Shown: positions 27,733-31,770 of the stretch, piece by piece
How positions within the stretch are numbered: the stretch's first letter is position 1
How the letters are laid out: each line of letters begins with the position of its first letter
From: Alphaproteobacteria bacterium
GTDB lineage: Bacteria > Pseudomonadota > Alphaproteobacteria > Micavibrionales > Micavibrionaceae
Assembly (NCBI GenBank): GCA_020443295.1
Contig: JAGRIJ010000008.1
Location: 1 to 64,000 of the forward strand
DNA: 64,000 nucleotides
Direction of reading: 5' to 3'
The notes under the pieces: model-generated
What the model was told of the DNA's origin: nothing
The model's database searches: none
Seen by the model: the letters and a program-made list of their open reading frames with translations, nothing else
Made by a program: the position numbers and the translations under genes

Positions 27733-28299
27733 TTACCGGGAAGAAATGTTTCTTTGCAGGAAAGGCATCATACGGCTCAGGATCCGGTCCTTGAAAATAA
27801 AATGGTGCGCAAGGGCCGCGGAGACGTGGACAACGACCAGACCGGCCAATACGTAAGCGGTAAGACTGTGAAAATTCCGAAAAAGCGGGACCAGTGCCCG
27901 GTCCTTCTCCATCAGCGCCGGAAAGCTGACCAGCCCGTATAAGCTGGGTTCCCGTCCCATGGCCGATATCATCAGCCAGCCTGAAACAGGCAGGGCAAAA
28001 AGAAAAAAGTAAAGCAGCCCGTGAGTAATCCGTGCTGCAAGCCTGAATTTAAAGGGCATATCCTCCGGCAGCAAGGGCGGCTTTGTATAAAAGCGCCAGA
28101 AAAGGCGGAAAAGCATCAGAAGCAAAACGGCCATGCCCGTGGATTTATGCAGATCCACCATGATAGGCTTCCACTCGCCGGGTGCGAATTCACGCCCCCA
28201 TCCCAGTCCGAGCATGACAAGGACCATAAGAGCCGCCAGCCAGTGGAGGAGTAGGCTGACGGCTCCATAGGTGTGGGAGGAGTTTCGCCATTGAGGCAT
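27733..28299 (-). CDS. Cytochrome b561-type membrane protein
   Basis: 188 residues, four membrane segments. Histidines placed as in bacterial b561 diheme proteins: LLLHWLAA in helix 1, DLHKSTGM in helix 2, RITHGLLYF in helix 3 and VVVHVSAALAHHF in helix 4. Such proteins pass electrons between quinol and a periplasmic acceptor such as superoxide or another redox partner. Last gene of the cupredoxin / barrel / b561 operon, 7 bases after the barrel gene, so co-transcription is very likely. Confidence 0.88.
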   Translation of the reverse strand: MPQWRNSSHTYGAVSLLLHWLAALMVLVMLGLGWGREFAPGEWKPIMVDLHKSTGMAVLLLMLFRLFWRFYTKPPLLPEDMPFKFRLAARITHGLLYFFLFALPVSGWLMISAMGREPSLYGLVSFPALMEKDRALVPLFRNFHSLTAYVLAGLVVVHVSAALAHHFIFKDRILSRMMPFLQRNISSR

Positions 28300-28306
28300 A
28301 TCGGTC

Positions 28307-29035
28307 TTAAAACTCGTATTCCAGGTTCAGTTTAATTGTCGCATCCGCAGCAGCATCGGAAAGGCCGAGCAGCAATCCGGTATCGTATTTGACATGGTCG
28401 ATCTTTCCTTGCGCAACAGGACCAAACTGGTGGCTCTGGCTATTGAAAGAAAGCTTGTCATGAAAGGTTCCGAAATCGCCGTAATACTCGAATCCGGGCT
28501 CGAATTTCTCATCATATCGGTATATCGATTGCAGGGCGATCCCGCTGCCCCAACTCGTATCATGATGAGGTCCGAATTCATGTTCGAGTTTCAGGTTCGC
28601 AGTATTCATGAAATCGTTGACATCCTTTTCAAGGAGCAGCTTGGTTTCAAAATTGTCTGGATCTCCGCTATGTGCTGCCTTTTCCAGTTCGACATAAAAC
28701 CCTGCATCCATCCAGTTTTCACCGGGCTTCCAGGGGGTAAAAATATTTTCCCATTTGTAATTGGTAAGTTTGTCGCTCTTCCCGTTTTCTTTTTCAATCT
28801 CGCCGGAAAGTTCGACCTGCCACCAGTCGTTGACGCCATATTCAAAACCGACCACCTGGCTGAAATAATTATCCTTATCCTTGCGGTGATCGAAGTCATA
28901 ATTCAGATTCGCTTCCGCCGCCAGTTCTCCCTTCTCAACGCGGGGTTGGTAGATTTTAAGGTTATCGGCCCGGGCTTGGAGGGCAGAAAAAAAGACAACA
29001 GAAAAGCACACGAATGCACCGTTAAAGTACTTCAT
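28307..29035 (-). CDS. Outer-membrane beta-barrel protein, function unknown
   Basis: 242 residues with a signal peptide ending QARA at about residue 23. The mature protein alternates aromatic and polar residues (AEANLNYDFDH, FEYGVNDWWQVELSGE, KLLLEKDV, ANLKLEHEFGP) and ends in LNLEYEF, with the terminal Phe needed by the BAM machine. About ten to twelve strands can be sketched. It resembles the small 'transporter/phenol-degradation MetA-like' barrels. It lies between the cupredoxin and cytochrome genes, spaced 30 and 7 bases. Confidence 0.75.
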   Translation of the reverse strand: MKYFNGAFVCFSVVFFSALQARADNLKIYQPRVEKGELAAEANLNYDFDHRKDKDNYFSQVVGFEYGVNDWWQVELSGEIEKENGKSDKLTNYKWENIFTPWKPGENWMDAGFYVELEKAAHSGDPDNFETKLLLEKDVNDFMNTANLKLEHEFGPHHDTSWGSGIALQSIYRYDEKFEPGFEYYGDFGTFHDKLSFNSQSHQFGPVAQGKIDHVKYDTGLLLGLSDAAADATIKLNLEYEF

Positions 29036-29065
29036 TTTATAAGATCCTGTAAGGGTTAGAAAAAA

Positions 29066-29401
29066 TTATTGTGCGACGATGCTTCCTTTGGCATCGGGGT
29101 TGTTATCGTCGAATATGGGATATTCGCCCGGTTCAAGCGGCCCGATATAGACGTCGGTACTCTCGCCGCTTTTGATTTTCACTTCCCGGTTCAACCGGTA
29201 ACTCTCAAATTCTGTTTGAACGGTTTCGCTGTTTTTGACAACAAGATGAATTTTCTCATGAGCGGGAACTTCCAGAACCGGAGGGCTGAAAGAACCCTCT
29301 TTCATTTCGATCGTATAGGTTGTGCCGTCTTCCGCCAGGACCGGAAATGGGGCGCCCATACTTAAAACAGAACCAAGAATTAAAGCATACTTAAGATTCA
29401 T
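29066..29401 (-). CDS. Periplasmic cupredoxin-like protein (EfeO/FtrB type)
   Basis: 111 residues with a signal peptide cut after VLA at about residue 23. The mature 88 residues form a single Cupredoxin_1-like domain: YTIEMKEGSFSPPVLEVPA, IHLVVKNSE, LNREVKIKSGESTDVYIGPLEPGEYPIFDD. The His/Cys/Met copper ligands of plastocyanin are not visible; acidic residues, Tyr and Asp dominate, as in iron-uptake domains of EfeO and FtrB (family knowledge). A strong AAGGAGG precedes the ATG. First gene of a three-gene operon; no FTR1 permease is in the window. Confidence 0.78.
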   Translation of the reverse strand: MNLKYALILGSVLSMGAPFPVLAEDGTTYTIEMKEGSFSPPVLEVPAHEKIHLVVKNSETVQTEFESYRLNREVKIKSGESTDVYIGPLEPGEYPIFDDNNPDAKGSIVAQ

Positions 29402-29468
29402 AGGAATCCTCCTTTGTTACGCTTTATTTTTCTTGAACAAGCTGAAGGGAACCTGAAGTAAACAAAAA

Positions 29469-29504
29469 ATAAAAAGCCCGGCTTATTTCCGGGCTTTTTA
29501 TTAA
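29469..29504. terminator. Bidirectional terminator
   Basis: AAAAAGCCCGG and CCGGGCTTTTT flank the loop CTTATTT, with A and T tracts on both sides. It separates the 54-residue peptide gene from the cupredoxin operon. Confidence 0.92.
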
Positions 29505-29520
29505 GACTGAAGGAAAAACT

Positions 29521-29685
29521 CTATGCTTTAATATTGACAAGCCGCGAATCTTTATCCGGACCGGCTCCGTCCACATCGCCGTCATGGTCGGGATCGGATG
29601 CAGCGCCTGAAGAAGGAGGCAGAGCCACATTCTTCTGAGCCTGTGGGATAAGAATGTTCGACAGATGAATAGCAGAAACTGACAT
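29521..29685 (-). CDS. 54-residue Asp-rich peptide with an EF-hand-like loop
   Basis: ATG on the minus strand preceded by AAAGGA at 8 bases and followed by a strong terminator. The protein starts MSVSAIHLSNILIPQAQ and contains DPDHDGDVDGAGPDKDS near residues 31-47, a pattern of alternating Asp with Gly like calcium-binding EF-hand or dockerin loops. No signal peptide. It lies 88 bases downstream of the 637-residue CYADD-repeat protein on the same strand, so both may share a transcript. I do not recognise a family, and it may function with the repeat protein. Confidence 0.65.
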   Translation of the reverse strand: MSVSAIHLSNILIPQAQKNVALPPSSGAASDPDHDGDVDGAGPDKDSRLVNIKA

Positions 29686-29773
29686 TTAAGAAATCCTTTC
29701 TATACAGGTCGTTTCTTCACAACCATCCCCATTATCCGGCATTAACCTGAAGTGAAGCTTAAGGCGAAGAATA

Positions 29774-31687
29774 TTAATGTACAGGCGCCGCAGCGGGCTC
29801 TTTATGGCAGGGCCCATCCATGTCGTCAGCATAGCAGGCGCCGTCTTCTTCAACTTTTTGCCCGGTTGCATCTCCGGCGTTGCGCCGGATGGATTCATCA
29901 TCGCCGGGTTTCTCCCCGCCGCCGCAGGCACCCTGAAAATCATCGGCATAACAGACCCCGTCATCTCCGCCCGTATGGGTCTCGGTCCCGCAGGGCCCAT
30001 CGATATCGTCGGCATAACAGACGCCGTCTCCGCCCGCATGGGAGGGTTGTGCATCGCTGCACAGATCCAGCCCGCCTTCATTCACCCGTTCCCTGAGAGT
30101 GGGGAGATAGCGGTCCTCGCGCAACCGGTTATAGGTTTCCCGGAAATTATAAGGATCGACCATGCTTCTGCCGCCCCATTCGAACAGGCTGGCAGCCGAA
30201 GCGCTCTTGTCGCGAAGATCGCGCATAATCATCTGCACGGTCGCTGAGTCTTTCACATCGTCATATTTCAGATCCATGTTCTGCGGAACGAGGTCTGGAC
30301 GCAGCCTCTGGGCCAGACGGAACAGATGCTCGTCATCGACGGCGCCAAAGCGCTCCACCCATCTTTGGTCGCGGTACTCATCAAATTGTGCGCGGAAATA
30401 AATATCGTGCTGCTGTTCGCGCGTGATCCCGATTCTCTCCAGCTGCTCCGCACGTCCTTGATCGCGCGGCGGCTTTCCAAACCCGATTTTAGCCAGAAAA
30501 ACGTCATCTTGGTGGGGGTTGAACCGGCCTTCCAGCATGGCTTTGGAAATATCATGCTCGTCAATGCAAAGAACTCTCGCCTGATGAGCCATGATTTCCG
30601 TGGCAATCTGGCCAACCTGATCGCGTGTAAAACTTTGTGCGTTCAGATCGAACCCCAGGCGTTCTGCAATAGAACGGATCAACGCCTGCTGCGTAGGATC
30701 GGCGTTGTCGGGGTGCAGGAGCGATTTCGCGCTGACGCTGTCGCCGTTCAGAAGATCGACATAAACGGCCTGGTTAAAGAAACGGTCGCGAACGGGGTTT
30801 TCCCATGGCGTATCGGTTCGGGGAGGGGCATCGGTATAGGCTCCGCCCGGTAGGCGCGCCCCGACGATATAATCGACAAGGCTTTTCATGGCTCCCACCC
30901 GGCCAAGCTCCCGCATGGCAGGGCTGGAAGGCTGCTCTCCGCGCATCTGCATCAGCCAGATCTGGTTGAGCGTCTTCTGAAGGTCTTCCTGTTGTACTCC
31001 TGCCTCGCGCATGCGCTTTTGCAGCAATTCGTTCATAAAATGGGCAGCCCGGACATCAAGATGCTGCGGCACGAAATCAACGCAGATATCCGGATTGGCG
31101 TCTCTTTGCTGCTTAAGATAGTCTTTTAACGCTCTCCCTGTGCTCTCAAGCACATCGGTATTGGTTGAGGGATTGCCCGTCACGCCCAGATACGAATCGC
31201 TCAATTGCATCAACTCTGCAGCTTGCTGCGCAGGGGTTTTTGGAGCGGGAGCTGCCGTTCCTCTCTGCGTAAGCAGCCGTCTCGATTCGGCATTGACGTT
31301 TCGGCGCATCTCTTCCGGCAGGGCCTGAGTCTTGGTGGCCAGATCGTTCAGCATGGAAATGGTTTGCTTGAGGCCTGCTCCGACCTGCCCGGAAGTATCG
31401 GCAACCGCCGCCGCCTGAAGCATGGTAATGGCGGCTATGGTGGCTTCGTCCATTTCTCCGGTGACCTGAACGGCGCTTAGCAAATTCGCCTTGTCGCCGG
31501 CCAGTGCGCGCAAATCGGCCCCGGCCCCGGCAAGAAAGCGTTGCGTATCCTCAATGGAACGGCTGTAAGTTCTTAAGAAAGCGGCATCGGACGCGTCTTC
31601 GTTAAGCGTAAGCGGCGTGTGTCCCATATCAAAAATACGGGGAACGATAGTATTAAGAGTCTGTTTGAGCTCTATGATTTCCGACAT
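29774..31687 (-). CDS. Large protein with C-terminal Cys-Asp repeats, function unknown
   Basis: 637 residues, no signal peptide or membrane segment. The first 550 residues are mostly helical; I see SIEDTQRFLAGAGADLRALAG and LAQRLRPDLVPQNMDL but no known catalytic motif. The last 90 residues carry three copies of G-[VA]-C-Y-A-D-D-x2-G-[PA]-C. Cysteines are scarce before residue 540. The ATG at 31687 is preferred (AAGGG upstream); a GTG four codons earlier is in frame. It is read from a near-consensus promoter. Candidates for function include metal binding or secretion without a signal peptide, both speculative. Confidence 0.75.
   Translation of the reverse strand: MSEIIELKQTLNTIVPRIFDMGHTPLTLNEDASDAAFLRTYSRSIEDTQRFLAGAGADLRALAGDKANLLSAVQVTGEMDEATIAAITMLQAAAVADTSGQVGAGLKQTISMLNDLATKTQALPEEMRRNVNAESRRLLTQRGTAAPAPKTPAQQAAELMQLSDSYLGVTGNPSTNTDVLESTGRALKDYLKQQRDANPDICVDFVPQHLDVRAAHFMNELLQKRMREAGVQQEDLQKTLNQIWLMQMRGEQPSSPAMRELGRVGAMKSLVDYIVGARLPGGAYTDAPPRTDTPWENPVRDRFFNQAVYVDLLNGDSVSAKSLLHPDNADPTQQALIRSIAERLGFDLNAQSFTRDQVGQIATEIMAHQARVLCIDEHDISKAMLEGRFNPHQDDVFLAKIGFGKPPRDQGRAEQLERIGITREQQHDIYFRAQFDEYRDQRWVERFGAVDDEHLFRLAQRLRPDLVPQNMDLKYDDVKDSATVQMIMRDLRDKSASAASLFEWGGRSMVDPYNFRETYNRLREDRYLPTLRERVNEGGLDLCSDAQPSHAGGDGVCYADDIDGPCGTETHTGGDDGVCYADDFQGACGGGEKPGDDESIRRNAGDATGQKVEEDGACYADDMDGPCHKEPAAAPVH
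29807..30028 (-). repeat. Three protein-level repeats (C-Y-A-D-D-x-x-G-x-C)
   Basis: Copies fall at about residues 554-566, 576-588 and 615-627 of the 637-residue protein. The Cys pair spacing is x8 in all three; copies 1 and 2 sit close together, copy 3 after a longer linker. DNA is similar between copies (GGCATAACAGA occurs in two), so the repeats probably arose by duplication. Confidence 0.8.
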
Positions 31688-31740
31688 TACACCCTTCACC
31701 CCGAATACAAAACGGGACCATAATTCTTATATTTTGACAA

Positions 31741-31770
31741 ATTATACGGTCTAGACCCGATCTTTGTCAA
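31741..31770 (-). promoter_or_regulatory. Consensus sigma-70 promoter with nested dyads
   Basis: Minus strand TTGACA (31765-31770) and TATAAT (31741-31746) with an 18-base spacer, both perfect hexamers. The spacer carries the perfect palindrome GGTCTAGACC (31748-31757), and TTTGACAAA / TTTGTCAAA (31733-31741 and 31763-31771) form an outer inverted repeat around nearly the same centre. It should drive the 637-residue protein gene, with repressor-type control likely. Confidence 0.75.

Follow-up and report, generated by a model that had tools for sequence, protein, structure and literature searches.

A lineage-restricted, fast-diverging protein family at one chromosomal slot of Micavibrionaceae

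Gene X and its transcription signals

Gene X encodes a 637-residue protein and lies directly 3' of ilvE (branched-chain aminotransferase) on the same strand, facing ychF, an arrangement observed in every ortholog examined. Its features in the window (the whole 64,000-nucleotide stretch of DNA analyzed here) are collected in Table 1. A second in-frame start, GTG, is present upstream at 31699, and the ATG is preferred because of its better-spaced ribosome site and the alignment with relatives. Between ychF and X, the minus strand at 27733-29401 encodes a cytochrome b561, a 242-residue probable outer-membrane protein and a secreted cupredoxin-like protein; this trio is absent in G001 and G002.

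Table 1. Coordinates and properties of gene X and the features around it
Feature	Positions	Strand	Remarks
Gene X	29774..31687	minus	637 aa, without known family; ATG at 31687, stop ends at 29774; helical body at about residues 1-536
X codons 541-637	29777..30067	minus	low-confidence tail with three Cys-x8-Cys repeats; pLDDT 23-35, dN/dS 0.17-0.28
Sigma-70-type promoter, TTGACA-18-TATAAT	31741..31770	minus	12/12; similar sites before slot genes of several other genera
37-bp inverted repeat, TTGACAAA-N21-TTTGTCAA	31734..31770	minus	perfect arms; encloses the X promoter
X 5' leader	31688..31740	minus	conserved AT-rich start, short hairpin at about 31724-31706, ribosome site GAAGGGTG
54-aa ORF with EF-hand-loop-like DGDVDGAGPDKD	29521..29685	minus	probably coding, not conserved
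Intrinsic terminator	29468..29502	minus	14-bp stem, -20 kcal/mol, z -4.7

All elements described in an earlier note made from the sequence are present where it placed them, and its interpretation is borne out in part. The note had described a perfect -35/-10 promoter, and the site was found both to score full marks and to be kept in relatives. It is the sole site scoring at least 11/12 in the window; order-1 resampled sequence contained a mean of 0.35 sites at this level and none at 12/12. Promoters resembling TTGAC[AT]-17/18-TATAAT precede the slot gene in g1, g28, g5, g10, G017 and G026, and conservation of the X promoter and leader extends to protein identities as low as 30%. Upstream of X in three g1 species (G000, G001 and G002), the inverted repeat enclosing the promoter is identical in length and arms, and its pattern has one other match elsewhere in these genomes, reversed-pattern controls giving none. 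A palindrome in the promoter spacer, GGTCTAGACC (31748-31757), was considered as a further element, but the genome contains it a single time and congeners lack it, and it was thus taken as chance.

In much of g1 and g28 a leader hairpin (z -1.4 to -4.0) lies just 5' of the ribosome site. It does not reach significance in the window copy, and the hairpins of different genera show no column-by-column alignment. The terminator is palindromic and thus possibly bidirectional. The codon adaptation of X, measured against a reference set of only two ribosomal genes, is ordinary (0.58), and codon bias was accordingly discarded as a sign of high expression. Strong transcription of X is likely, whereas high abundance of the protein stays unproven, since codon use is only average.

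A family confined to Micavibrionaceae at the ilvE slot

No significant match to X was detected in Pfam, NCBIfam, PHROGs, PADLOC, PDB sequences, phages or viral contigs, in line with the earlier note, which could assign X and its small companion to no family. Plasmids gave one match, which lies in a TonB receptor (E 0.05) and is spurious. A whole-genome search recovered X in two congeners at 70 and 59% identity and in two other genera at about 30%. The X profile reaches 16 of the 104 Micavibrionaceae genomes; across 142 genomes it found no member in the order's remaining families. Among the genomes searched, X orthologs are thus confined to the host family, and X is a real, undescribed lineage-specific family.

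The lack of a known family and the patchy presence would also be expected of phage or mobile-element cargo. However, X occupies a fixed slot between core genes across genera, has no relative in phages or viral contigs, and no tRNA was found in the window, so that this origin is barely credible; a gene-transfer reading was likewise dropped for want of phage support.

The slot was read in about 45 genomes of the family. About 28 of them carry a long same-strand ORF of 241-1902 residues; in the rest, ychF follows directly or the slot is taken by short ORFs or another gene. In the two single-contig Micavibrio genomes, G052 (L074) and G023 (L076), the slot is filled by an opposite-strand gene that was named adenosine-deaminase-like by eye from its sequence. 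Profile comparison interlinked slot sub-groups A to E at probabilities of 99.8, 97.4, 82 and 42%, and placed sub-groups F, H and J in a second cluster (96.8 and 53%); the maximum among 110 reversed control sequences was 1.9%. No profile link joins the two clusters and three singletons, so the data do not establish a common ancestor for the whole set of slot proteins. The family to which X belongs is restricted to this lineage, diverges fast and occupies a single chromosomal slot in Micavibrionaceae. In G128 (L052 1262-3307), the N-terminal domain of X is tandemly duplicated, hinting that the longer slot proteins grew through domain repetition.

The proteins encoded at the slot share several properties. 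All are acidic, with net charges of -2 to -129. A hydrophobic N-terminus was seen in G132 and perhaps G010, and a membrane-span-like stretch possibly in G111 only, so the description of X as signal-free extends to nearly the whole slot group. Slot proteins of 1902, 1429 and 1219 residues contain no Cys, compared with 12-19 expected at the window's rate. This Cys avoidance is a property of slot proteins outside X's own sub-group, whose Cys tail is the exception to the Cys-poor character. The slot proteins of G111 (L079), G007 (L081) and G133 (L060), with 1902, 1429 and 1573 residues, have zero or one Cys. Peptidoglycan-binding-like motifs read by eye in slot proteins gained no support: Pfam PG_binding is absent among the matches listed (25 of 31 families, for 26 slot proteins at E <= 1), and X itself has no match.

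X is 29-70% identical between genomes where IlvE, YchF and Prs are 75-92% identical. Where estimable, its dN/dS is about 0.08-0.12, with synonymous sites near saturation, and is higher in the tail (Table 1). Despite its fast divergence, X is under purifying selection.

Helical body, Cys-loop tail and the small downstream ORF

AlphaFold predicted an all-helical body for X (mean pLDDT 62.5, with many blocks at 70-90) followed by a tail that is disordered from residue 537; the core alone gave a mean of 66.3. The input alignments, built from proteins of the window and the genome contigs, were shallow, with four rows. A search of structure libraries with these moderate-confidence models returned nothing significant (best Foldseek E 0.56 and 0.69; best Z 5.0 and 6.0), and such models mark the fold neither as new nor as known. 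Two short strands in the model had suggested an EF-hand in the core, a reading without profile or fold support; even at E <= 5, X has no EF-hand match in Pfam.

The tail contains the three C-Y-A-D-D-x-x-G-x-C repeats that the earlier note had placed at the end of the protein, namely CYADDIDGPC at residues 557-566, CYADDFQGAC at 579-588 and CYADDMDGPC at 618-627. The region before them is Cys-poor, as had also been claimed, with residues 202, 374 and 543 as the only upstream Cys. None of 20,000 shuffled tails contained two or more repeats. At the DNA level, the repeats show up in part, as a 59-nt direct repeat, 76% identical, spanning copies 1 and 3.

Comparison with relatives shows which part of the repeat is kept. 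Two to four Cys-x(8-10)-Cys loops are found at the C-terminus in g1, g28 and g5, in the versions CYADDxxGPC in the window genus, CTVESATDYTC or CTVEGVVGKGPC in the sister genus, and CPVEDKVKGLC. Across the loops the two Cys are retained, in most cases together with an acidic residue at +3; Asp-Asp is local to the window genus. This weakens the proposal that the repeat's Asp pair binds metal. Most of the X sub-group has C374, C543 and the tail Cys pairs; G120 lacks all of them. The Cys total is even in 8 of 11 members and odd in the window copy, which has nine owing to a private C202, and in two others. Judged from sequence, the Cys pattern would fit disulfides, and hence an oxidizing place, although it is no proof of either; the odd totals count against export of the protein.

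A disordered tail with short Cys-bracketed cores, repeated in copy numbers varying from two to four, is also what might be expected if X were a precursor from which the Cys-loop repeats are cut out or modified into small peptides. Yet no modifying enzyme was recognized among the neighbors, which are mostly housekeeping genes, such cores are missing in most slot relatives, and a peptide-modification family was matched only once, without significance (E 0.88). A precursor role is accordingly highly improbable.

Downstream of X, the 54-residue Asp-rich peptide with a DxDxDG-like loop reported in the earlier note is present on the same strand, as is the strong terminator after it. The ORF has an AAGGAT-type ribosome site, and its loop at residues 35-46 has the form DxDxDGxxxxxD, which is shared with EF-hand and dockerin-type calcium loops. 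Unlike in EF-hands, no flanking-helix pair is evident in the ORF. A distant slot relative, in G017, has an EF-hand_7 match at E 5.8e-4, which is below the Pfam cut-off. The codon log-odds of the ORF (0.142 per codon) are the highest of the six frames, corresponding to the 19th percentile of true coding pieces and the 77th of wrong frames.

X and this peptide had been proposed to form a unit, a co-regulated metal-binding pair. The two genes lie on the same strand with 88 nt and no terminator between them and a common strong terminator behind, and the ORF, with its coding-like codon use and EF-loop-like motif, may share the X transcript. However, no relative of the ORF was found beside X in G001, G002, G055 or G006, in 95 related genomes or on plasmids; 385 genomes of the class gave only chance-like matches in unrelated frames, and Pfam, NCBIfam, PHROGs and PADLOC gave nothing significant. 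Without relatives in the searched genomes, the ORF is not a conserved partner of X. Given also that the Asp pair of the X repeat is not conserved, the proposed pair is very unlikely.

Exported surface protein or cytoplasmic scaffold

Proteins with the traits seen at the slot, being acidic, Cys-free, signal-peptide-free and variable in size, look most like exported surface proteins. Our best guess, a tentative one, is that X is exported or surface-located and that its tail loops are closed by disulfides. X would leave the cell without a signal peptide and reach the cell surface or the medium, where its helical body would do the work, while the flexible tail might display disulfide-closed acidic loops of the form C-x-[AV]-[DE]-x(4-7)-C for binding or anchoring. 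That X-like proteins of 428-1902 residues share slot and strand counts in favor of export, and the absence of X from the ilvE-ychF slot of Micavibrio aeruginosavorus counts against it. Acidity combined with Cys avoidance is found in cytoplasmic scaffolds too, which likewise speaks against export.

The candidate route is type I secretion, the only signal-peptide-free system found to be near-universal in the family, with HlyD above cut-off in 101 of 104 genomes. The published Micavibrio genome encodes type I and type II secretion but neither type III nor type IV (PMC3189940). In G000:C35:24000-34790 (L125 1-10791), an outer-membrane factor, an ABC transporter and HlyD are encoded next to a giant protein (at least 1778 residues, net charge -279), a layout equal to that published for M. 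aeruginosavorus GMV0107-0111 (PMC3189940). The type I-linked giant GMV0107 comes from the same host family as X, and a type I locus of like layout is present in the window's genome; unlike this giant, X sits elsewhere, is far smaller and shows no detectable sequence relation to it. By eye, the C-terminus of X is also unlike that of the type I-linked giant of its own genome.

S-layer proteins are typically abundant and are described as acidic and without cysteines, and RTX substrates of type I systems are acidic and span 300-5000 residues (PMC3034196). Like such proteins, of which Caulobacter RsaA is an example, X is acidic and Cys-poor, lacks an N-terminal signal peptide, and belongs to a fast-diverging group of wide size range; the strong promoter is a further likeness. 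In contrast to them, X has no RTX repeats, is predicted to be helical rather than beta, shows by eye no matching C-terminal signal, has no adjoining secretion genes, and its abundance is unproven. GGxGxD nonapeptide repeats are absent from 25 of 26 slot proteins, with one isolated match in G001. X is described as a taxon-restricted case of fast-evolving acidic Cys-poor proteins, not as a new class of system.

Alternatively, X may be a helical scaffold or structural protein of the cytoplasm whose tail Cys have an intracellular metal-binding or redox role. Nearly all members lack a signal peptide or membrane span, the prediction is all-helical, no known secretion signal was recognized, and codon use is average, all of which argue for this possibility. 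However, the strong Cys avoidance in very long members and the fast divergence with length change suit exposed proteins better, and a Cys spacing of 8-10 residues is not that of the usual zinc knuckle. Export and the cytoplasmic scaffold are given equal weight, each being possible but doubtful.

Exported, X could in the boldest case found an undescribed class of signal-peptide-free Micavibrionaceae surface proteins, encoded at a fixed slot and remade in size and sequence between species like prey-contact or receptor-evasion proteins. One clade would have a tail of disulfide-closed acidic loops, and the promoter with its inverted repeat would be controlled by a dedicated regulator. This extended version is improbable.

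The relatives of Micavibrio include bacteria that kill other bacteria through surface contact. The absence of X from its slot in M. aeruginosavorus suggests that predation as such does not require X. Encoded at one slot across many genera of the family, strongly promoted, fast-changing and free of a signal peptide, such a protein is a candidate surface or contact factor, and X would be an easy knockout target.
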